Positions 2,798 through 29,906 of a stretch of 35,772 nt of DNA are shown here, piece after piece. Source of the DNA: Prevotella sp. (GTDB lineage Bacteria > Bacteroidota > Bacteroidia > Bacteroidales > Bacteroidaceae); contig JAFPVW010000171.1 of NCBI GenBank assembly GCA_017395215.1, positions 1 through 35,772 of the forward strand, in the 5' to 3' direction. The notes below the pieces were generated by a model that worked only from the letters and a program-made list of their open reading frames with translations, did not search any database and was not told the DNA's origin. The stretch's first letter is position 1, and each line of letters starts with the position of its first letter. A program made the position numbers and the translations under genes.

Positions 2798-3895
2798 TTA
2801 ATCGCCCCAAGTTAATGTATATGTACATTCTGAAGTAGAATCAATCCACATCGCTTCAAATCCTTCTGGTACACCAATATCCCCATAATTAAATGCTTGG
2901 ACTTCTTCAGAGTGTGAAAGTGAACTAATTGCAGATATTGGACGTCCCCATGCTGCTGGGTAAATCCAAACAGTAAATATCTCACCATCTTTATCTATTG
3001 TATTAGGAACAGTAATAGAAGATGGCTTGGTTGCTACATATTCATTCAAATCAGAAAGAGCAAAACTTTCTTTAGATGTTGCACCTAAGAAATAATTATT
3101 CTGTTGTACTGTAGTTTGATCTTCAACTGGAGTCCAAGATTCAATGGTACCTAATGACGAAGCACCAGAACATACATATACATATACTAATTTATTAGTT
3201 GGATTTATAATTCCTAATTCTGAAGCATCAAATTCACTGAAATTAAATCCTGCTGGATCTTTTATAGTTGGTAAGCCCCATTCTTTAGGAACAATTACAA
3301 CATTATAGCCGCGTCTAAAGCTAAATTCTGTTGGTTTACCTGACATATTATTAGTTAAACTGTTAATGTATGATTGACTTTGTATTTGATCTTCAGTAGC
3401 TTGGCCAAAATAAAAATCATAAGTTGAAGCTTTAAGCGTTATCGTAGCTGCGTCATTCCAAGCCTGTGTCTTGTAAATGGCATAGCCAGAGATGGTTACA
3501 TCGTCAACGTCATCTGAAAAAGAGACGGAATTGCCGTTTCCGTCCTCAATTATCACGTTTTCCCCCTTCATCCAGCCGGCGGGGCACAACATATAGAGCG
3601 TTTCGCCGGCGGCGACGGAAGCCGTCGCCCCAGAGGCTTCGCTTATGGACATATATGAGGCGACAACGCCGGGAAGCGTTTGGTAATTTTCCGCTGTTGG
3701 CTGTGTCGTGCCGAGGTAGAAGTATCCAGCTTCACCCTTCATAACGATGTCAACAACGGCAGTGATGTCGGCCACGTCCACCCTGCCGTCACCGTTCATG
3801 TCGCCTTTCAACGCCCCATTGTTACCACTCTGTGCGAATGCACTTGCGCTACCCAACAGCACCGCTGCCAATAGCATAAGAATTTTCTGTTTCAT
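2798..3895 (-). CDS. Secreted protein with one dockerin-like repeat and three beta-type repeats
   Basis: I start this at the ATG at 3895 (365 aa) because it begins a clear signal peptide, MKQKILMLLAAVLLGSASAFA, cut after AFAQ. An upstream in-frame ATG would bury the signal. Residues 30-52 form one dockerin type I/EF-hand-like repeat (GDMNGDGRVDVADITAVV). Three divergent repeats of about 100 aa follow. Each begins with a (Y)FYLG/FYFG/YFLG strand and has a conserved W(G) turn: CPAGWMKG, VPKEWGLP, YPAAWGRP. Such proteins are common in Prevotella-type genomes, but their role is not known to me. Position 2798 to about 3460 is clearly AT-richer than the 5' part, suggesting a mosaic gene. No good -7 box is seen upstream. 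Confidence 0.78.
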   Translation of the reverse strand: MKQKILMLLAAVLLGSASAFAQSGNNGALKGDMNGDGRVDVADITAVVDIVMKGEAGYFYLGTTQPTAENYQTLPGVVASYMSISEASGATASVAAGETLYMLCPAGWMKGENVIIEDGNGNSVSFSDDVDDVTISGYAIYKTQAWNDAATITLKASTYDFYFGQATEDQIQSQSYINSLTNNMSGKPTEFSFRRGYNVVIVPKEWGLPTIKDPAGFNFSEFDASELGIINPTNKLVYVYVCSGASSLGTIESWTPVEDQTTVQQNNYFLGATSKESFALSDLNEYVATKPSSITVPNTIDKDGEIFTVWIYPAAWGRPISAISSLSHSEEVQAFNYGDIGVPEGFEAMWIDSTSECTYTLTWGD

Positions 3896-14077: not shown

Positions 14078-15424
14078 TCACTGGTTATTGAGCGTGAAAG
14101 AGAGATGGTGCCACCGATGCAGCACGTAGATGATGGCGGCTTCGGCAACATAGGCTATCAGGTAGCTGTACCACAAGAGGTGTGGGGCATACCTGGACAC
14201 GACCCATAAGACGGGGATGACCGCCAGCGAAAGGGCAAAGGAGATGAACAGTGCCATGTGGTGATGGCCATAGAGCTTATAGACAATCATGAGCACGTAG
14301 ATGTAGCAAAAGGGAATGAAACTGAGAGCAAAGATGCGCAGGGCGTCGTCGGTCTCGGCGATATAGTCGGGATGGTCGGCGCCAAAGAGTGCTGCGATGG
14401 CCTCAGGGTCTATCCACACGAACAGGCAGGTGACGGCCATGGCTACGGTAATGAAGCGCAGCGACTTACGCAGCACGAGGCGCAGGCTATCGGTATCGCG
14501 GCGCCCAACCTGTATGGCGCCCAACGACTGTAGTGTCTGACACGTGCCTGAGAGGAAGAGATTGTAGACCTGCAGCAGGTTCATGCAGACGGCAAAGGCG
14601 AAGATGCCTGCCTGTCCCAGGGTGGAGAGTACGATCCTGTTGGCCGAAAACAGCAACAGCGTCAGGCTGATGGAGGCGACGGCGAGTGGTGCGCCCTGGG
14701 AGAGAATACGGCCCACCCCCGACCCCTCCCCAAGGGAGGGGAGACAAAAACGTAGCCTCGCAAGACTCCCCTCCCTTGGGGAGGGGCTGGGGGTAGGCAT
14801 CCAATGCGTGAGCAGGATGGCGATGCCTACGAGGTGGCCCACGACGGTGGCTGCCGACGAACCTGTGATGCCCCACCCGAACCACTGTATGAATACAATG
14901 TCGAGGCAGAGGTTCAGTACATTGTCAATGATGACCGCCAGGGAAACCAGCCGGGGCTGACCGTCGACACCCACCATCGTGGAAAGGCCCCACATGAGGA
15001 TGAAGGCCGGATTGCCGAGCAGCAACACCTGCGCATAGTCGCGCGCCAAGGGGAGAATCTGCTCATTGCTGCACAGCAGGCGGGTGGTGCCGTCGATGAA
15101 GAAGACGCCGGCAAAGAGCGCCAGCAGCAGACCGAGACCTACGCTGAACGTGAGTGACAGCGTGAAGTAGCGGCGCGCCAGGGGGATATCCTTCTGTCCC
15201 AGAGCATAGGCCACCAGCATCCCTGCACCCGCGTTGATAAGCAGGTGCAGGGTAAAGATAAACTGGTTGATGGGCTTCGACAGGTTGATGGCGCTGACAC
15301 CGTCGGCACTGATGAGGTTGCCTACGATGATACCGTCGACCACGTTGCCCAGGCAGCCGGAGAGGGCCACAAGGACGTAGGCCCAAAGGTAGTTGTAGAA
15401 CTGTTTATTTAATTCAGAATTCAT
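14078..15424 (-). CDS. MATE family efflux transporter
   Basis: A 448-residue multidrug/oligosaccharidyl-lipid/MATE-type exporter with about 12 membrane segments in two halves. Typical positions are GNVVDGIIVGNLI (about 24-36) and INLSKPINQFIF. The second half starts near GAPLAVASISLTLLLFS. MATE pumps use sodium or proton gradients to expel organic compounds. It starts 9 nt after the NRPS stop, so it is the best candidate exporter for the NRPS product. The central inter-half loop holds an in-frame GC-rich palindrome (14712-14797) translated as PSPSPREGS...LPSLGEGSGVG. The start codon itself lies in an AATTATG repeat. Substrate is inferred from context only. Confidence 0.9.
   Translation of the reverse strand: MNSELNKQFYNYLWAYVLVALSGCLGNVVDGIIVGNLISADGVSAINLSKPINQFIFTLHLLINAGAGMLVAYALGQKDIPLARRYFTLSLTFSVGLGLLLALFAGVFFIDGTTRLLCSNEQILPLARDYAQVLLLGNPAFILMWGLSTMVGVDGQPRLVSLAVIIDNVLNLCLDIVFIQWFGWGITGSSAATVVGHLVGIAILLTHWMPTPSPSPREGSLARLRFCLPSLGEGSGVGRILSQGAPLAVASISLTLLLFSANRIVLSTLGQAGIFAFAVCMNLLQVYNLFLSGTCQTLQSLGAIQVGRRDTDSLRLVLRKSLRFITVAMAVTCLFVWIDPEAIAALFGADHPDYIAETDDALRIFALSFIPFCYIYVLMIVYKLYGHHHMALFISFALSLAVIPVLWVVSRYAPHLLWYSYLIAYVAEAAIIYVLHRWHHLSFTLNNQ
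14712..14797. repeat. 32-bp inverted repeat element inside the MATE gene
   Basis: The left arm (14712-14743) and right arm (14766-14797) are complementary over 32 bp with a few mismatches. Each arm contains the palindrome CCCTCCCTTGGGGAGGGG or its variant. The 22-nt loop carries ordinary sequence. The whole unit is translated in the loop between the two halves of the pump. Confidence 0.85.
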
Positions 15425-15436
15425 AATTCATAATTA
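15411..15436. repeat. AATTATG repeat spanning the NRPS stop and MATE start
   Basis: On the minus strand TAATTATGAATTATGAATTCTGAATT covers the NRPS stop codon, the MATE ATG and its first codons (MNSELN). The MATE start is therefore built from repeat sequence. Confidence 0.65.
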
Positions 15437-18400
15437 CTCCTCAAAGAATCCGAATCCGCCTAAGGCCGTGAGCATGCGCTCCACATAGTCCCACGACGTG
15501 GGGCTCCAGCTGAAGCCGAGACGATAGAGCACCTGCGTGGTGTAGTCGTTGTCGCGCGCCACGTCGCTGGTCTTCTGTCCGTGGGCCATGTCCTGATAAG
15601 CCAGCAGCGAGGCCAGTTGCCGTGCCTTCTGCGGGTCGTTCTTGGCCTGGTCCATGGCTTCGGCAAAGTCCTCCTGCTCCACGAAGCGTATGCCGTCGCC
15701 GACAGCCGTCAGTCCCATGAGCACATCGCCGAGGAACTGTCCGTGGATGTTGTAGGGATGGAAGACGGTGCAATCGCGCGGCGTAGTGGCCAGCAGGACG
15801 ATGGCACGACTCACCTCGTTGATAGGCGAGAATTCCACGCGCTTGTTGCGCATGGCGTAGGGGCAGCAGCCCAGCATATTGTAGACCTTGATGCGCCCCA
15901 TGAACGAGTTAGTCGAGAAGTTGGCCTGGAACTCGCCGTCGGTCGAGCGTGCCGCCAGGTTGCCTACACGCATGATTTTGGCACTCAGTCCGTGCAGGGC
16001 CACGGCATCGAGGATGAGGCGCTCGGCCATGAACTTTGAATAGATATACTTGTTGCCGAGATACTGGCCCATATAGAGGCGCTGCTCAGTGAAAATCTCG
16101 CCCCCGTTTGCTCCCGATTCTACCCATAGGCCACGGGTGCTGGCGGTAGAGACATGCACCAGCTTGGCGCCCGTCTGTATACAGAAATCCACACAACGCT
16201 GCGCTCCGCCGATGTTCACGTCTTCTATCTCGGTGCCTTCGGCGAAGTGCTTTACGATTGCGGCACAGTTGAAGACTGTATCGATGGTGGTGGCGACACT
16301 GTCACCACAAACGGAACGAAGATCGCTGGTAACGTCGCCGAGGACGACATGGAGACGATGGCCAAACAGCTGCTTAAAGGACTCTGAGAAGTAGTAGAAG
16401 AGAAGGGTGCGCAGTCGCCGCTCGGCAGCCTCCTGCGTCTTGCCGCGCACCAGACAGTAAATGTTCTCGGCTTCAGAGTGGATGAGCTCGTACAGGATGT
16501 GGATGCCCAGATAGCCCGTGGCACCCGTGAGCAGCACATTGCCCAGTGGCTGGCGCTCGCCGTGGCGGAAGGTGTCGATGGTGTTGAGCTGCAGCTGGTT
16601 GTCGATGGCGGTGTAGTCAAAAGCGGCGACGGGATCATCAGACGGCGCAGCGGCGGTTTCGCCGGTAATCAGCGTGGCCAGCAGGCGTGGCGTGGGGTTG
16701 GCAAACACATCGCCATAGGCCACGTGGAGTCCGGCCTTGTCGGCCTCGATGATGACGCGTGTGACGACGAGCGACGTGCCGCCGAGCTCAAAGAAGTTGT
16801 CAGTAGCCCCCACCCTGTCCATCTGCAGGATGTTGGCAAAGATGTCGCAGAGGGTGCGCTCGGTGTCATTGGCCGGGGCTACGTATGCCGAGCTGACGGC
16901 CAGCTGCGGCTCGGGCAGGGCCTTCACGTCGGTCTTGCCGTTGGGTGTCATCGGCATCTCCTTCAGCTGCAGATAAGCCGTGGGCACCATATACTGCGTC
17001 AGGCTCTTCGAAATCTCAGCCTTCAGGTCGGCGGGGGCAATCTCGCGGTCAGCGGTGTAGTAGGCACAAAGGTGCTCCTTGCCGCCTATCTGGTGTATCA
17101 TGATGACCACCTTCTTCATGCCCTCCACCCTGAGCATGACGTTCTCAATCTCGCCCAGCTCGATGCGCAGGCCGCGGAGCTTTATCTGATGGTCGGTACG
17201 CCCGAGGATGAGCACATTGCCGTCGGACAGCCACTTGGCGTAGTCGCCTGACTTATAGATGCGCATACCGTGGTAGTCGACGAAGCGCTCGCGGGTCATG
17301 TCGTCGAGGTTGTTATAGCCGCGGGCCACGCCACGTCCGCCGATGTAGAGCTCGCCGACGACACCGGCCGGGAGTTCGTTGCCGTCGCTGTCGACGATGA
17401 ACTCCACGACGTTCAGCTGGGGCTTACCCACGGTGACGATGTCCGCATGAGTGAGCTCGGCGTTGTTCGAGGCGACGGTAATCTCCGTCGGACCGTAGCA
17501 GTTGAAGATGCGCGCTTTGGTGACGCTGCGCATCTTGGCCAGCAGCGACTCGCTGAACTTCTCGCCGCCGGCACGACAGATCTTGACCTGACTGATAGCC
17601 TGGCAGAAGTCGTCGCTGGTGAGCCAGGTCTGCCAGCGCGAAGGTGTGCCGCTGACCATATTGATGTGCTGCTCGTTGATGAGGTGTGCCAGGTCGAGCG
17701 GATTGTTAGCCTGCTCCTCGGTGGCGAGGATGAGCGTCTTGCCGTTGTAGTAGGCCATGCCGATGTCCTGCAAGGCAGCGTCGAAGGATATGGTGGTGAC
17801 GCTGAGTATGCGCGTGGCATCAGTGAGCACGGCGTTGGCAAAGACGTTGGCCGGATGGCCGTAAAGGTAGTTGCAGATACCCTCGTGACGCAGCATGACG
17901 CCCTTCGGGCGACCTGTGGAGCCGCTGGTATAAATAAGGTAGGCGAGGTCGTCGGGGGTGATGTTGGTTGCGACTGGGTCGCAACATACCGAATCGGAGA
18001 GTAGCGTCTCCACATCGACGGCCTTGTCAGCAGGGACGGCAGCGAGCCTGATTCCCGCTGGCGCGCCTACCCGTAGCCTTTCAGCAGTGGTGATGATGTA
18101 GCGGGCCTCGCTGTCCTCTAAGATCAGTTTCACGCGGTCGGCAGGATAGTCGGGGTCGCAGGGGATATAGGCGGCTCCGGCTTTCAGCACACCGAAGAGG
18201 GCGAGAATAAGGCGGCTGGTGCGCGGCAGCAACAGGGCTACGCGGTCGCCCTCGCCAACACCGCGCTGGCGCAGGCCGTTAGCAATGCGATTGGTCAGGA
18301 GGTCCATCTCCCGGTAGCTATAGGTGGCGTCGCAGGCCACCAGTGCCTCCTGCTCGGGCTGTGTCTGTGCGAAGTGGGCGATACAGTCGTGGAAGAAGCG

Positions 18401-20959
18401 GAAAGGCGCTTCGCCCGTGGCAGTCTGCCGCAGACCGCCCAGCTGCGCCTCCTGGTTCTTGCTGACGATGGAGAGGTGGCGCACCTTAGAGGCGGGCTGC
18501 GCCATCATGTGGTCTGCCACGGCGGCGATGCTCTCGGCCAGGGCCTCGCCTAAGGCCGGCGAATAGAGGGCATCGTCGTACTGCACGACCACACCGCGCG
18601 TCTCTATCTTGATGTTGATCTTAAACTTCGGGACGTTGAGTTCCAGCAGTTCCTGGCCGACGATCTGACCGCCGACCTTGTATTCCGACAGCACGCCCAC
18701 CTGATAGGCGTAGGCGATGGCAGGCCGGAAACCATAGTCGGAGGCGATGCGTGCAAAGGGATAGTCCTCGTGGCGCAGCGTCTGGTCGAAGGTGTCGCTG
18801 GTCTGTTTCAGGAACTCGCCGACGCTGACGTCGTCGATATTGAGACCGAGGGCGAGGGTATTGACAAACATACCCACCGTGTCGGCAATCTTCAGGTTCG
18901 AGCGTCCACTGCTCACGGTGCTGAGGTAGACCTCGCGGTTGTTGGTATAGCGCGAGACGACGTAGGCCGTGGCAGCAAGGAAGAGGTGAGCCGGTGTGAT
19001 ATTCTGCTGGCGGCAGAAGTCGGCAGCCTTCTCAGCGTCGAAGGGACAGACAGCCTCGCCGATGAAGCCCTGGCTGTCGGTCTTGGGCAAGTCGGCGGGA
19101 ATCTCGCTGGCCCCCTCGCAGGTCTGCAGTTTCTCAGCGAAGAACTGCTGCGAGGCCCGGAAGGCTTCCGTGTCTTCGGCCTTCTGCTGGTCGGCCACGA
19201 AGTCGAGGTAGGTGTAGGTCTCGCTCTCGATGGCAGAACCGTCGAGCGCGCTGCAGAGCTGGCGGATGAACAGGTCGGCAGAGCCACCGTCGAAGAGCAG
19301 GTGGTGGACGTCCATCAGCAGTGCCACGCCCTCACCCGTCTTCACCACCTCGAAGCGGTAGAGGGGCGCCTTTTGCAGGTTGAAGGGCTGCACGAACTCA
19401 TTCTTATACGCCGACAACTGCTCGGTGCTCATCTCGCTGACGGGTATCTCTACGGGTACGGCGCCCTCTGTGGTCTGCATAATCGTATCGCCGCTGGCGG
19501 TGAAGTGCACATGCAACTCAGGATGGCTCTCGACGACCCGTTTCACGGCATCAACCAGGCTACCGGCCTCGGTCGATGCAGGGAAGGTGAGCATATACGG
19601 GATGTTATAAATAGTAGAGGTGGGATTCTTCAGACACTCGAAGTAGACGCCCGTCTGGGCGTAGGAGAGGGCAGCCCCCCCTACGGCCCCCGAGGGGGCT
19701 TCTTTTGTTTTGCTGTTAAGGGAAGTGCCTATGGGGTCCCCCTCGGGGGACGAAAGGGGGGCTTTCATCATCTCATTGAGAATCTCATTCTCTATGCTCT
19801 GTATGGAACCGCTTTTCACCAAGGCCCTCGAATCGAGCGTCACGCCGAAGCGCTTGTTGACCTGTACGGCGAGCTTGATAGCCGAGATAGACGTCAGGCC
19901 GACGTAGCCGAGGACGGTGGTAATGCCAAAGTCGGTGCTGTTGACGATAGCCGAGATCATGTCCTTCAGTTCCTGCTCGAGGACGTTCAGCGGAGCGCTC
20001 TCAGCATCCTGCGCCACTGTCGCAGCACGCATGACGGGCTTCGGCAAGGCGCGCTTGTTCACCTTCTGGTTCTGGTTCAGCGGAATGGCGTCTATCTGCA
20101 TCGTGGCGGCGGGCACCATGTAGGGGGGCTTCTGGTCGAGGATGAAGTTGTTGAGTGCCTCGATGTCAATCGGTTCATCGCCGACGATGTAGGCCGCAAT
20201 GAACTTGCCATTGCCTCCCTGCTCGTCAAAAGCCTGGACGGTGGCGTCCTTGATGCCGGGGAACTCACGGATGACGGCCTCAACCTCCTTCAGTTCGATG
20301 CGGAAGCCGCGTATCTTCACCTGTCCGTCGCGGCGGCCCACAAACTGGATATTGCCGTCGGGCAGGTAGCGCACGATGTCGCCCGTGCGATAAACTCTAT
20401 AATATCTAGAGTCTCTAGAATCTCTAGAATTTCTAGAGACGAACGGATTGTCGATATACACCTCGGCAGTCTTCTCCGGACGGTTCAGGTAGCCGCGGCT
20501 CACCTGCGGTCCGCTCACCCACAGCTCACCGGCAGCGCCGACGGGCAGTCGGTGCCCCTGGCCATCGACGATATAGAGGCGCATGTTGTCGAGCGGCCGG
20601 CCGATGGGGATGTCCTTCAGCTTCTTCTCTACCTGGTAGGTGGTGGTGAAGATGGTACACTCCGTGGGACCATAGACGTTGTAGAACTTGTAGCCCGTCG
20701 GCGGAGTGATGCTGGCCAACTTCTCGCCGCCGGTAGAGAGGTACAGCAACGAGTGGTTCTCAATGTTCGAGGCGAACTGGAATCCCACCTGTGTCGTCAT
20801 GAACGAATGGGTGATGTGCTCACGCTCGAAGTACTCGTTCAGCGCTATGAGGTCCAGACGGATTTCCTCGGCGATGATGTGGACAGTGGCGCCGCAGGTC
20901 AGGGCGGGATACATGTCCATCATGCAGGCGTCGAAGCCGTAGCTGGCGTAGGCCGCCAC
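15434..20959 (-). CDS. NRPS, 3' part: end of A1, then T1-C2-A2-T2-reductase (out of frame with its 5' part)
   Basis: The frame gives 1,841 aa from a GTG at 20959, which is inside an A domain (AAYASYGFDACMMDMYP), so it is not a natural start. Homology extends up to about 21090. Domains: rest of A1 (1-310; YGPTE 96-100, RTGD 191-194); T1 (325-395; Ser357 in GLTSIS); C2 (430-830; HHLLFDG 552-558); A2 (850-1350; YTSGSTGRPKG 1010-1020, YGPTE 1155-1159, Lys1342 in NGK); T2 (1360-1430; GGTS, Ser1396); R (1470-1841; NAD(P) motif GATGYLG 1479-1485, YIYSK 1638-1642). By hand alignment the A2 pocket reads about D-A-Q-S-C-A-C-V-A-K and A1 about D-A-M-F-L-T-V-I-F-K; neither gives a safe substrate. A terminal R domain releases the peptide as an aldehyde or alcohol. 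The MATE gene follows 9 nt later. Confidence 0.9.
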   Translation of the reverse strand: MAAYASYGFDACMMDMYPALTCGATVHIIAEEIRLDLIALNEYFEREHITHSFMTTQVGFQFASNIENHSLLYLSTGGEKLASITPPTGYKFYNVYGPTECTIFTTTYQVEKKLKDIPIGRPLDNMRLYIVDGQGHRLPVGAAGELWVSGPQVSRGYLNRPEKTAEVYIDNPFVSRNSRDSRDSRYYRVYRTGDIVRYLPDGNIQFVGRRDGQVKIRGFRIELKEVEAVIREFPGIKDATVQAFDEQGGNGKFIAAYIVGDEPIDIEALNNFILDQKPPYMVPAATMQIDAIPLNQNQKVNKRALPKPVMRAATVAQDAESAPLNVLEQELKDMISAIVNSTDFGITTVLGYVGLTSISAIKLAVQVNKRFGVTLDSRALVKSGSIQSIENEILNEMMKAPLSSPEGDPIGTSLNSKTKEAPSGAVGGAALSYAQTGVYFECLKNPTSTIYNIPYMLTFPASTEAGSLVDAVKRVVESHPELHVHFTASGDTIMQTTEGAVPVEIPVSEMSTEQLSAYKNEFVQPFNLQKAPLYRFEVVKTGEGVALLMDVHHLLFDGGSADLFIRQLCSALDGSAIESETYTYLDFVADQQKAEDTEAFRASQQFFAEKLQTCEGASEIPADLPKTDSQGFIGEAVCPFDAEKAADFCRQQNITPAHLFLAATAYVVSRYTNNREVYLSTVSSGRSNLKIADTVGMFVNTLALGLNIDDVSVGEFLKQTSDTFDQTLRHEDYPFARIASDYGFRPAIAYAYQVGVLSEYKVGGQIVGQELLELNVPKFKINIKIETRGVVVQYDDALYSPALGEALAESIAAVADHMMAQPASKVRHLSIVSKNQEAQLGGLRQTATGEAPFRFFHDCIAHFAQTQPEQEALVACDATYSYREMDLLTNRIANGLRQRGVGEGDRVALLLPRTSRLILALFGVLKAGAAYIPCDPDYPADRVKLILEDSEARYIITTAERLRVGAPAGIRLAAVPADKAVDVETLLSDSVCCDPVATNITPDDLAYLIYTSGSTGRPKGVMLRHEGICNYLYGHPANVFANAVLTDATRILSVTTISFDAALQDIGMAYYNGKTLILATEEQANNPLDLAHLINEQHINMVSGTPSRWQTWLTSDDFCQAISQVKICRAGGEKFSESLLAKMRSVTKARIFNCYGPTEITVASNNAELTHADIVTVGKPQLNVVEFIVDSDGNELPAGVVGELYIGGRGVARGYNNLDDMTRERFVDYHGMRIYKSGDYAKWLSDGNVLILGRTDHQIKLRGLRIELGEIENVMLRVEGMKKVVIMIHQIGGKEHLCAYYTADREIAPADLKAEISKSLTQYMVPTAYLQLKEMPMTPNGKTDVKALPEPQLAVSSAYVAPANDTERTLCDIFANILQMDRVGATDNFFELGGTSLVVTRVIIEADKAGLHVAYGDVFANPTPRLLATLITGETAAAPSDDPVAAFDYTAIDNQLQLNTIDTFRHGERQPLGNVLLTGATGYLGIHILYELIHSEAENIYCLVRGKTQEAAERRLRTLLFYYFSESFKQLFGHRLHVVLGDVTSDLRSVCGDSVATTIDTVFNCAAIVKHFAEGTEIEDVNIGGAQRCVDFCIQTGAKLVHVSTASTRGLWVESGANGGEIFTEQRLYMGQYLGNKYIYSKFMAERLILDAVALHGLSAKIMRVGNLAARSTDGEFQANFSTNSFMGRIKVYNMLGCCPYAMRNKRVEFSPINEVSRAIVLLATTPRDCTVFHPYNIHGQFLGDVLMGLTAVGDGIRFVEQEDFAEAMDQAKNDPQKARQLASLLAYQDMAHGQKTSDVARDNDYTTQVLYRLGFSWSPTSWDYVERMLTALGGFGFFEE
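19672..19765. repeat. GC-rich inverted repeat in the T1-C2 linker of the NRPS
   Basis: AGCCCCCCCTACGGCCCCCG-type sequence at about 19672-19699 and its near complement at about 19737-19765 flank some 38 nt. The unit is translated in frame as about PLSSPEGDPIG...APSGAVGGA between T1 and the C2 domain. Confidence 0.75.
20405..20437. repeat. 9-bp TCTAGA repeat inside the A1 domain
   Basis: TCTAGA occurs at 20405, 20414, 20423 and 20432, exactly 9 bp apart. It is translated as SRNSRDSRDSR in A1 just before the RTGD motif. Gain or loss of units would keep the frame. Confidence 0.9.
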
Positions 20960-21027
20960 GTTGTGCTCTGGTTTCAGGCCATAGAAGCGCTGATACCAGT
21001 GGCAGAAGGTGACGAGGTTGCCGTGTG

Positions 21028-22800
21028 TCAGCTGGCAACCCTTGGGGATGCCCGTAGATCCGCTGGTATAAAGGAGGATGAAGAGACTTTGAGGTGAGAG
21101 GTGAGAGGTGAGAGATTACCTTGCAAGCCCTTCAAATCTTTCGTCAGCAGCACCTCGCCATGATATTCGTCTACAAGGTCGCGCAGCACTTCGTCAGCAA
21201 TGAGGAGTTTGGCATTGGCGTCCTGCATCATGAAGTTCAGACGCTCCTTCGGATAGCTGGGGTCAAGGGGCTGATAGGCGCAACCGGTCTTCAGCACGCC
21301 CAGCGAAGCGATTGCCATCCACTCGCAGCGGGGGATGAGCACCGACACCACATCCTCCAGACCCAGGCCCATTGAGGCAATATAGCCGGCTATGCAGTCG
21401 CTCATCTCGTCGACCTCGGCGTAGGTGTAACGCTTGTCCTTATAGACAACGGCAACGTTATCGGGCGTGGCCTTAGCCTGACGGCGGAACAGCGAGACGA
21501 TGGTCTGCGTATTGTCGTACTCGACATCGGTGTGGTTGAAACCGTCGAGGGTGGCTATCTGCGCGTCGGTGGCGATACTGATGTCACGCAGATACTCATG
21601 GCTGAGGAAGCCCTCTACCACGGCCTCATAGCTCTCCAGATACTGGCTGATGAGAGCCTCGCTGTAGGCATCGGCGCTGTACTCTGCCTCAATGGCGTAG
21701 CGGCCGTCGCGCTGGTAGGCCTTCAGATAGACGGGCACCTCGCGCGTATTGTTGTTCAGGCGCTGGGCTGTCATCGGCTTGCCGCACAGTTCAAGGCTGT
21801 CGAAGAGCGTCCCGTGCCAGGCAAAGAGCGTAGCGGTCTGCAGTCCGAGGTCGGTCACGACGTCGGCGTAGCTGTAGGCATCATGCTGCCGCTGAGCCGT
21901 CATCTGGTCCTGTCCGGCCTTGAGGAAGTCGAGCACGGTCGTATCGTTGCTGAACTTGGCATACACGGGTAGCGTCTTCACCAACATGGCGACGGAATGG
22001 GCCAAGCGCTTGTCGGCACGGCCGTTGTGGATGGTATTGAACAGCGCCTCGTGCTCGTTGTTGAACTTGGCGAGCAGGTAGCTATAGGCTGCGGTGAAGA
22101 AGGTACTCTTGTAGATGGCGTGAGCGCGGCAGAAGTCCTCGACCCGGGCCGTGGCCGTGCCGAGCGTCCGCGTCATCAGTTCCTCCTGCGGTTCCCCTCC
22201 CTCCTGGTCGGGCAGCAGCGGACTGTAGCAGTCGCCGCAGTCGAAGTTCTGGGCATACCACTGCTTGGCCTCATCGAAGGCTGGCGACCGACGCGCCTCA
22301 GCCTCCGCCCTGGCGACATCGCCAAGGGTCAGTTCCTCTGGCTGCAGCGGGCTGCCGGCATAAGCCTTTTCGATGTCGGCCAAGAGCACCTTGCGCGAAG
22401 TGCCGTCGCTGATGATATGGTGAATGTCCTGCAGCAGGTAGTAGTGGTCAGCATCGTGCAGCAGGTGGATGCGGAACAGCCGGTCGCCGCTGATGGCGAA
22501 GGGCTGCACGAACTGTGCCTTCACGGCCTCGATGTCGGCCGTTTCCTCCACGCTGAGCGTAAACGTCTCACCGTCGTCGACGGTCTGCATGGGTTCGCCG
22601 TCGTCGCTCAGTGTGATGCGGGTGAAGAGCGTCGGGTGGGCCTTCACGGCCGTCTCTACTGCACGACGCAGCTGCTCGCCGTCGAGGGCGCCGTCCATTA
22701 TATATAAATAAGGTATATTATAGCACGGCTCACCGTCGTGTGCCATACACTCAGCATAGATGCCGTACTGTGTCTTGCTTAAAGGTGCTTGTGTGGTCAT
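21028..22800 (-). CDS. NRPS, 5' part: C1 and N-terminal third of A1 (frame broken by heptamer repeat)
   Basis: The 590-codon frame starts at the ATG at 22800 (MTTQAPLSKTQYGIYAEC), 23 nt after the barrel gene. Residues 1-415 form a condensation domain with the active motif HHIISDG (127-133). Residues 432-560 begin an adenylation domain: LFRRQAKATPDNVAVVYKDK, then LKTGCAYQPLDPSYPKERL (A2 motif, 503-521). From about residue 563 the reading goes wrong (NLSPLTSHLKVSSSS). The A3 motif LLYTSGSTGIPKG is encoded at 21045-21085 in another frame. In that frame TAA at 21116-21118 lies just upstream, so the shift must fall within about 30 nt that consist of CTCTCAC repeats. Starting with a C domain suggests an N-acylated first residue. 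As given, the product would end inside A1. Confidence 0.88.
   Translation of the reverse strand: MTTQAPLSKTQYGIYAECMAHDGEPCYNIPYLYIMDGALDGEQLRRAVETAVKAHPTLFTRITLSDDGEPMQTVDDGETFTLSVEETADIEAVKAQFVQPFAISGDRLFRIHLLHDADHYYLLQDIHHIISDGTSRKVLLADIEKAYAGSPLQPEELTLGDVARAEAEARRSPAFDEAKQWYAQNFDCGDCYSPLLPDQEGGEPQEELMTRTLGTATARVEDFCRAHAIYKSTFFTAAYSYLLAKFNNEHEALFNTIHNGRADKRLAHSVAMLVKTLPVYAKFSNDTTVLDFLKAGQDQMTAQRQHDAYSYADVVTDLGLQTATLFAWHGTLFDSLELCGKPMTAQRLNNNTREVPVYLKAYQRDGRYAIEAEYSADAYSEALISQYLESYEAVVEGFLSHEYLRDISIATDAQIATLDGFNHTDVEYDNTQTIVSLFRRQAKATPDNVAVVYKDKRYTYAEVDEMSDCIAGYIASMGLGLEDVVSVLIPRCEWMAIASLGVLKTGCAYQPLDPSYPKERLNFMMQDANAKLLIADEVLRDLVDEYHGEVLLTKDLKGLQGNLSPLTSHLKVSSSSFIPADLRASPRVAS
21091..21114 (-). 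repeat. Heptamer tandem repeat (CTCTCAC x3 + CTC) at the NRPS frame break
   Basis: Three perfect 7-bp units plus 3 nt. A change of one unit shifts the frame by one. One extra unit (four) or two fewer (one) would join the two NRPS frames; the present three do not. Confidence 0.95.
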
Positions 22801-29393: not shown

Positions 29394-29439
29394 CTCTCAC
29401 CTCTCACCTCTCACCTCTAAGCCTCTAAGCCTCTAAGCC
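29394..29439 (+). repeat. Heptamer/octamer tandem repeats between ATPase and STAS genes
   Basis: CTCTCAC x3 (29394-29414) is followed by CTCTAAG-type units of 7-8 bp up to 29439. The ATPase stop codon and last Ala codon lie in the last unit. The CTCTCAC unit is the same as in the NRPS, in opposite orientation. Confidence 0.85.
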
Positions 29440-29828
29440 ATTTTCTCTATCCTGAGGACGTTGTGCCCGTCGAGGCGCTGATAGCTCAGCCTGTCGGTCA
29501 TCTGGTGCAGCAGGATGATGCCCAGCCCGCCGGGAGGCCGCTCGTCGGCCGGCACCGTCAGGTCGGTCGGCGAATCCTGCGTCGGGTCGAAGGGCTGACC
29601 GTCGTCGTCGATGGTCAGCACCAGCCGCCCGGCATCCGTCGCCGCCCGCAGGGTAATGACAGTGGCCTGTCCGTAGTTGATGACATTGGCCACGGCCTCC
29701 TCGACGGCCAGCCGGAGGCGTTTTGCCTCCCTGCCGACAATCCCTGCCTTCTCAGCCGTCTGGGCCACAAAAGGCTGCAGGCGCTCGATGTCGTCCATCG
29801 TGGGTTTCAGTTCCAAGAGGTTCTGCAT
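29433..29828 (-). CDS. Anti-sigma-type ATPase (RsbW/SpoIIAB-like GHKL)
   Basis: This is 131 aa from the ATG at 29828 (MQNLLELKPTMDDIERLQ), which fits the promoter at 29852-29882. Longer frames would begin upstream of it. The ATPase motifs are N-box RLAVEEAVANVINYG, G1 DDDGQPFDP and G2 RPPGGLGIILLHQ. These kinases phosphorylate STAS partners and hold sigma factors or other targets. It is the first gene of the signalling-NRPS run. No sigma factor gene is near, so the target is unknown. Confidence 0.9.
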   Translation of the reverse strand: MQNLLELKPTMDDIERLQPFVAQTAEKAGIVGREAKRLRLAVEEAVANVINYGQATVITLRAATDAGRLVLTIDDDGQPFDPTQDSPTDLTVPADERPPGGLGIILLHQMTDRLSYQRLDGHNVLRIEKMA

Positions 29829-29851
29829 ACTGTCAATGCTGTTATTGGGTA

Positions 29852-29882
29852 CAAAGTTACGAATAATTAACGAAAGTTCCAA
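29852..29882 (-). promoter_or_regulatory. Promoter of the signalling-NRPS operon
   Basis: The minus strand has -7 box TAACTTTG (29852-29859) and TTG (29880-29882) 20 nt apart, in the 78-nt gap after the C11 peptidase gene. It would give a leader of about 20 nt. Gaps downstream are at most 68 nt for 18.5 kb. Confidence 0.6.
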
Positions 29883-29906
29883 AACTTCTTCTCTTTTTTT
29901 ACACAT

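Follow-up and report, generated by a model that had tools for sequence, protein, structure and literature searches.

We found that a gene for a two-module peptide synthetase (NRPS) in DNA from Prevotella sp. is split by a frame break that lies within a 7-bp tandem repeat, and that the affected stretch, a linker in the first adenylation domain (A1), carries many different 7-nt arrays in related genomes, most of them in frame. The DNA analysed, which we refer to as the window, is 35,772 nt in length (contig JAFPVW010000171.1, C122 in our numbering) and belongs to an assembly of 3.6 Mb in 211 contigs (GCA_017395215.1) that is 85% complete with 5.9% contamination. The explanation that we prefer, and which on balance we think probable, is that turnover of heptamers in a tolerant A1 loop gave a recent off allele of a constrained gene. 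This explanation overlaps, and is neutral between, two others that are weighed below, namely that the array is a contingency locus and that the gene has recently lost its function.

The synthetase is encoded on the minus strand from 22800 to 15434 and its domain-model matches read C-A-T-C-A-T-R, i.e., two modules followed by a terminal reductase (the models Condensation, AMP-binding, PP-binding and NAD_binding_4 matched in the order expected for a two-module synthetase with a reductase). The array in A1 comprises 24 bp, in which GAGGTGA (CTCTCAC when read on the minus strand, the coding one) is repeated 3.4 times without mismatch; its 7-nt unit, not a multiple of 3, lies within the NRPS reading frame. 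A first-pass annotation, made from the letters of the sequence and a list of open reading frames, had placed the break in this repeat, with a TAA just ahead of the 3' frame, and had predicted a joined gene of ~2,457 codons. All three claims were borne out: the 5' frame, which begins at 22800, reads straight through the array to its stop at 21028, the TAA is present on the minus strand, and in the relative G148 (the closest among the matches listed, 82% identical over 1 kb) the gene is a single open frame of 2,452 codons. No further stop was found in either NRPS piece by reading of the open frames. With two open pieces in the window and an unbroken gene in G148, the break is confined to the array. 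The features of the window are collected in Table 1.

Table 1. Coordinates of the synthetase, its repeat arrays and associated features in the window.
Feature	Positions	Strand	Remarks
Heptamer array (CTCTCAC)3.4, coding strand	21091..21114	-	A1 linker before A3 (P-loop) motif; linker 38 nt, out of frame
TAA closing the 3' frame upstream	21116..21118	-	Sequence and ORF reading
5' NRPS piece, 590 codons: Condensation and N-terminal part of A1	21028..22800	-	ORF, domain models
3' NRPS frame, 1893 codons: rest of A1, T1, C2, A2, T2, terminal reductase (NAD_binding_4)	15434..21115	-	ORF, domain models
9-nt tandem array (in-frame unit) in another A1 loop	20395..20437	-	Encodes SRNSRDSRDSR
7-nt array TAATTCA	15410..15435	-	Across NRPS stop codon and MATE gene start region
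MATE-family transporter, candidate exporter	14078..15424	-	Directly 3' of NRPS
CTCTCAC array running into 8-nt CCTCTAAG array	29394..29439	+	Holds stop of anti-sigma-type ATPase gene 29433-29906

The linker that holds the array directly precedes LFILLYTSGSTG, the P-loop region of the A domain. Among 20 aligned relatives the blocks on either side of the linker are conserved and the linker itself is not, and the best solved homologues are structures of linear gramicidin synthetase A; because of this alignment and homology we infer that the A1 linker is a surface loop. At 38 nt, the linker of the window is one unit below the 45-nt class described below, so the NRPS frame would be left before any adenylation and the predicted state of the gene is OFF. 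Judged by domain logic, a break at the linker loses the P-loop and all that lies downstream, and OFF should mean no product from this enzyme.

The named relatives of the NRPS (79 loci) come from MAGs of Bacteroidales, many labelled Prevotella and mostly from the rumen or other ruminant gut, and for this reason the source organism is probably a rumen Prevotella. Upstream of the NRPS are genes for a protein with a weak alginate-export match, two SpoIIE phosphatases and the anti-sigma-type ATPase. The top NCBIfam match of the 3' piece (P0002, the piece that was scanned) is the model for aureusimine synthetase AusA (NF047350), at 929.6 bits against an equivalog cut-off of 2500, and we rejected the identification of the NRPS as AusA on this score. 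AusA is an NRPS of the dipeptide-aldehyde/pyrazinone type. Like the synthetase of the window it has two modules and a terminal reductase, whereas the window NRPS has an extra N-terminal condensation domain; in its predicted architecture the latter resembles dipeptide-aldehyde synthetases such as AusA. The same genome has a second, paralogous synthetase that comprises C, A, T and R parts (L128, contig C120), the reductase domain of which contains an in-frame AACTCTC array (3289-3313). Note that a further locus of this genome (L004, contig C158) has near its middle an inverted pair of degenerate CTCTCAC-like arrays flanking a short spacer, and that L088 has a 14-nt-period array of CTCACCT-like units close to the place equivalent to window positions 20395-20437.

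Linkers of related A1 domains were taken from searches of 150, 398 and 399 genomes (overlapping draws, with at most 30 loci each), from the 79 named loci and from 60 additional regions drawn from the search hits. (The set omits 13 of the 122 listed places of one genome search and 17 of 48 of another, and the 150-genome search stands for the matches listed.) These sources gave 220 loci, six of them without a linker, and the merging of copies more than 97% alike on both sides left 184 distinct linkers. With an array defined by at least 11 of 14 matches at a lag of 7, 38 of the 184 linkers had 7-nt arrays; the same rule at lags of 5, 6, 8, 9, 10, 11 and 12 returned 1, 1, 7, 9, 0, 0 and 3 linkers, respectively. 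The units are diverse (CTCTCAC, CTCTCAA, CTCTTCA, TCAATTG, TCAATTA, CTCAAAC, CACCCAA, ACCAATG and others), and 35 of the 38 array-bearing linkers are in frame. A length of 66 nt is found in 21 of the 38 and a length of 45 nt in five; every 66-nt linker (n = 21) bears an array. On a tree of 102 A1 rows the array state, scored as an exact lag-7 run of at least 7, changes at least 14 times, with 48 of the 99 inner branches weakly supported (the row of L031, out of frame only through an alignment artefact caused by a downstream deletion, and the short second rows of L106 and L111 were excluded); these changes do not support a single founding insertion inherited by descent. Inside the NRPS sequence or up to 120 nt from it (110 loci, duplicates unmerged), period 7 accounted for 39 runs of at least 10 and period 14 for 25, as against 4, 6 and 6 runs at periods 8, 9 and 12, respectively. 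On these counts the idea that coding repeats follow a rule of in-frame units, as in Borgs, was discarded.

Three distinct linkers are out of frame: that of the window (38 nt), that of G316 (38 nt; L160) and that of G243 (59 nt; L165), and each is 7 nt below one of the common in-frame array lengths of 45 and 66 nt. Linkers out of frame made up 3 of 38 with arrays and 0 of 146 without (Fisher p 0.008); when the window, which was chosen for its break, was left out, the figures were 2 of 37 and 0 of 146 (p 0.04). Note that these p values are rough, since related linkers are not independent and the window was picked for its break, and that the in-frame count takes in the array-free L190 (length -3) and five other linkers longer than 80 nt. 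The linker of G243 has one unit fewer than that of L011, with flanks ~90% identical and a different unit. The linker of G316 is 7 nt shorter than that of its near relative L075; since the two linkers also differ ahead of the repeat units, the difference is a less clean case and not a clean unit deletion. The NRPS of G316, in an assembly that is 99% complete, is full length apart from the break and consists of two open pieces (643 and 1864 codons), and that of G243 is open to the end of its contig in an assembly that is 59% complete. A comparison of unit number among relatives, proposed as a check in the first-pass annotation, yielded 7-nt differences in length between species; among the linkers compared, no two near-identical loci were found to share an array yet differ in its number of units.

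In the 66-nt linkers, a class defined by length that contains 21 of the 38 arrays, mean identity between units is 0.841 within an array and 0.712 between loci at the same position (n = 21; none of 2000 permutations was as high). L018 and L175, the flanks of which are 98-99% identical, differ at 7 of 66 linker sites as against 11 of 800 flank sites (p 0.0002), and three of the seven linker differences are the same change in three adjacent units. Concerted change of this kind is what unit gain and loss under selection for length would give; recombination or conversion, instead of slippage, could also have homogenised the units. Over the 401 nt 3' of the linker L019 is 99% identical to L175, and the linkers of the two are unrelated. 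(L018, L019 and L175 are 98-99% identical in sequence after the linker, and the linker of L019 is unrelated to those of the other two.) This pattern suggests recombination with a breakpoint near the linker in these three loci. Some linker arrays are stable: L093 and L104 have one array in common despite 3-5% divergence of their flanks.

Outside the array the gene of the window looks constrained. When compared to G148, dN/dS was 0.229 before the array (556 codons) and 0.183 after it (1838 codons); for G316 against L075, dN/dS downstream of the break was 0.058 (985 codons). The first-pass annotation had named extra inactivating mutations elsewhere as the mark of a simple pseudogene, and we found none in the window gene; an old pseudogene was rejected on the dN/dS of 0.18-0.23 against G148 together with the lack of any other stop in the open frames. 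Pairwise dN/dS is compatible with a very recent relaxation of selection. We regard as a serious possibility, if somewhat short of a probable one, that the array is a frameshift hotspot and that the OFF allele, neutral or harmful, is becoming a pseudogene. Plain loss of this NRPS does occur among relatives, as breaks outside the linker attest: in ~546 kb of open sequence (139 linkers) there were frameshifts in A1 in L031 (a deletion near 2180) and L185 (near 1700), an in-frame nonsense codon in C2 in L075 (near 6290) and a short row in L201. (Four stops that lie ~2,480 nt downstream were assumed to be natural ends of one-module or A-first genes, and so were seven upstream frames of short length.) Broken copies of the NRPS occur without arrays, yet per base the linker is hit more often, in small numbers. 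The presence of the paralogous synthetase also argues for recent loss; what argues against it is that the only break is in the array and that the gene, 7 kb long, is otherwise open and has a dN/dS near 0.2.

Arrays of this kind are found well beyond the A1 linker. The window has several others, including a second CTCTCAC array at 29394-29418, and the arrays at 29394-29439 have a stretch of ~25 bp in common with the NRPS array, 8.3 kb away on the same contig. In 276,640 bases of the window genome there were nine period-7 runs of at least 12 matches versus 0.2 per shuffle (mean of five shuffles, within 50-bp blocks); the NRPS array has a run of 17. At a threshold of at least 10 matches, there were seven period-7 runs in intergenic sequence (24 kb) and seven in coding sequence (253 kb). 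Within coding sequence, periods 6, 9, 12 and 15 were about as common as 7; in the intergenic sequence period 7 led. G117 (400 kb) had five intergenic and three coding runs at this threshold, and E. coli K-12, of which 50 kb served as a small control, had no such runs at any period. Several period-7 arrays overlap stop codons.

The abundant heptamer differs from genome to genome. In exact 14-mer counts for 11 chosen genomes, CTCTTCA was found 203 times in G034 and not at all in G134 or G650, CTCAAAC 63 times in G134 and 0 or 1 times in the other ten, and CTCTCAC 79 times in G395 and not at all in three others. Ten of the 11 genomes had been picked because their linker unit was known, and among the five units searched the linker unit ranked first in four of the ten, second in three and third in three. 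The match between the linker unit and the dispersed heptamers of the same genome exceeded that of label permutation (p 0.0015; in-linker matches were subtracted by an eye count from the listed places, and the figure for G034 is an estimate). Linker units thus tend to match heptamers dispersed in the same genome, and do so weakly in the window genome, where the linker unit ranks third with 3 matches outside the linker. In that genome the CTCTCAC 14-mer has 10 matches at no more than one mismatch, five of them exact and four of these in the window; these low counts do not support a single abundant dispersed element as the source of the window array.

Heptamer arrays also reside within conserved proteins. 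Twenty regions of G034 and G134, picked for their arrays, held 26 arrays, 14 of which were inside mechanical ORFs of at least 100 codons. Twelve of the 14 were translated, giving LFTLHSS or PQTSNLK repeats (stop-free by construction of the ORFs), and all ten of those searched against Pfam matched a family. NCBIfam models for DnaG, FeoB and the glutamate synthase small subunit were matched above cut-off; the MiaB ORF, the gene of which runs off its contig, matched below the full-length cut-off, and the ORF of L266 may not be a gene. In G134, PQTSNLK-type peptides from in-frame CTCAAAC arrays were seen at L275, L276, L277, L279 and L281-L284, and the hosts of the arrays are glutamate synthase, GHL10, DnaG, MiaB, a glycosyltransferase, FeoB, an M20 peptidase and an AMP-binding/acyltransferase protein. 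The MiaB loop was obtained from six of eight loci (five of seven genomes): G395 and G000 are without extra residues, G109 has a shorter, different stretch and that of G136 is much longer (L291, in which MiaB has a long insert at the loop where G134 has its array). The FeoB loop was obtained from six of eight loci (six of seven genomes), four of them without the residues, and G109 has a shorter stretch. Note that a 7-nt unit free of stops gives one and the same cyclic heptapeptide whichever of the three frames is read, and that for each of the five units searched genome-wide every frame of the reverse strand contains a stop. G034 has, in addition, hairpins at L265 1023-1184 and L267 1394-1498, in which inverted CTCTTCA arrays form the outer arms and the core resembles TTTGCTACCGC or TTTGCTTCCGC; half-elements of these hairpins are present at L265 2689 and in L269.

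According to our preferred explanation, in which heptamer turnover gave the off allele, the array of the window would be of recent origin and would belong to a population of 7-nt tandem repeats that is scattered over these genomes. Different 7-nt arrays would arise repeatedly in the hypervariable loop between the N-terminal part of A1 and the P-loop, gain and loss of units would bring about fast turnover of the loop sequence, and selection would hold most arrays at lengths that keep the frame, 66 nt being the commonest and 45 nt the next. A change in unit number, presumably by slippage, would then have produced the OFF allele, which might revert. Reversible switching of the window array is plausible; the array has only 3.4 units.

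Unlikely, in our estimation, though it merits weighing, is the further explanation that the array is a contingency locus, with high-frequency switching of unit number in the population and an ON/OFF NRPS selected as bet-hedging. In its favour are the three out-of-frame alleles, which come from different genomes, all bear arrays and are all 7 nt from a common in-frame length, in genes that are otherwise open and constrained, and the concerted turnover of units in the 66-nt class. Against it are the number of arrays that are in frame, their shortness, and the occurrence of similar arrays in housekeeping genes, where switching makes no sense. Arrays of three to five units are short relative to known contingency loci. 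In-frame heptanucleotide arrays whose frameshift is a putative switch have been described in Haemophilus influenzae (in passages of PMC2651432), which again favours a contingency locus. The first-pass annotation had taken a unit length not divisible by 3 as the hallmark of slipped-strand switching and had proposed a phase-variable synthetase. This interpretation survives in part. The linkers out of frame are without exception array-bearing, G243 and G316 are out of frame at the same loop, and low dN/dS speaks against an old pseudogene; however, the arrays are mostly in frame with few units, and the 7-nt unit alone is not a sign of switching here, because 35 of the 38 loop arrays are in frame and similar arrays are intergenic or in housekeeping proteins.

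More speculatively, each genome might have a heptamer family of its own, which templated synthesis or gene conversion would copy both intergenically and in frame into the loops of conserved enzymes, with the A1 loop as a hotspot that makes a standing on/off switch for a secreted peptide; our confidence in this reading is low. Within it, 7-nt arrays would be unusually easy for proteins to absorb because 7 and 3 are coprime, so that a stop-free unit gives the same heptapeptide in every frame. Least likely of all is an error of assembly or consensus, with the true unit number in frame in the sampled cells: the window comes from a fragmented MAG with the repeat duplicated within the contig, each case rests on one assembly, in which strains may be mixed (85% complete with 5.9% contamination for the window, 59% complete for G243), but equal or longer arrays at the same place were assembled in frame in many genomes, there are three separate cases, one of them in a 99% complete assembly, and a 24-bp array fits well within one short read.

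Should the OFF alleles prove reversible, slippage in a repeat would be the means by which a rumen commensal turns a peptide pathway on and off. Switch or not, the A1 loop is a natural experiment, with 7-nt arrays that differ among dozens of species but occupy a single point of one enzyme, mostly at one length and with concerted change of units. The loop thereby makes testable the origin and spread of heptamer repeats, the mechanism of which has long been unsettled in bacteria. A heptamer in a reading frame is, in these genomes, weak evidence of phase variation.

Rickettsia palindromic elements are dispersed repeats inserted in frame in unrelated proteins; the repeats described here differ from them in being simple 7-nt arrays with no fixed palindrome, though G034 has hairpin-flanked arrays. 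The tandem repeats of Borgs, as portrayed in passages of PMC9879509, are likewise fast-evolving and add peptide to proteins, mostly disordered in Borgs, but their units in ORFs are divisible by three, whereas the repeats described here have a unit of 7 and stay in frame only in sum. Dispersed heptamers are on record in sections of two other articles, TAACTGA in Beggiatoaceae, Cyanobacteria and some Bacteroidetes (PMC4679880) and G-rich heptamers in Xanthomonas and Nostoc (PMC4692102). They resemble the heptamers of these genomes in having many copies per genome, mostly intergenic and some at stop codons, with an unexplained origin; here, in contrast, which unit is abundant depends on the genome, and conserved proteins too contain arrays in frame. 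A heptanucleotide excess, dispersed heptamers and heptanucleotide contingency loci in bacteria have thus been published already (PMC4679880, PMC4692102, PMC2651432 and PMC8262952, each in excerpt), and PMC8241843 (likewise in excerpt) gives a survey of NRPS clusters from the rumen, those of Prevotella among them. Our search of the open-access literature returned nothing joining Prevotella with heptamer repeats and, for NRPS with slipped-strand or phase-variable repeats, nothing beyond one paper on Propionibacterium acnes typing; PMC11388281 was set aside as a link between Prevotella and slipped-strand mispairing, as in its retrieved text the phrase stands only in the title of a reference on Gardnerella.

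Two close parallels are in H. influenzae. The heptanucleotides upstream of hmw1A and hmw2A (excerpts of PMC8262952) are, like ours, 7-nt tandem units, and unit number sets expression there; those repeats are in the promoter region, whereas the array of the window is in the reading frame. Excerpts of PMC2651432 report heptanucleotide units inside reading frames, those of hmw1A of strain PittAA and of an HI1369 homologue, with 8-14 units. The window array is like these in-frame loci in having a 7-nt coding unit whose frameshift is predicted to switch the gene, and unlike them in that their arrays of 8-14 units are in surface proteins, whereas here there are mostly 3-5 units in a peptide synthetase. 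Also unlike the H. influenzae loci, the arrays that we describe occupy one loop with many different units across species, mostly in frame.
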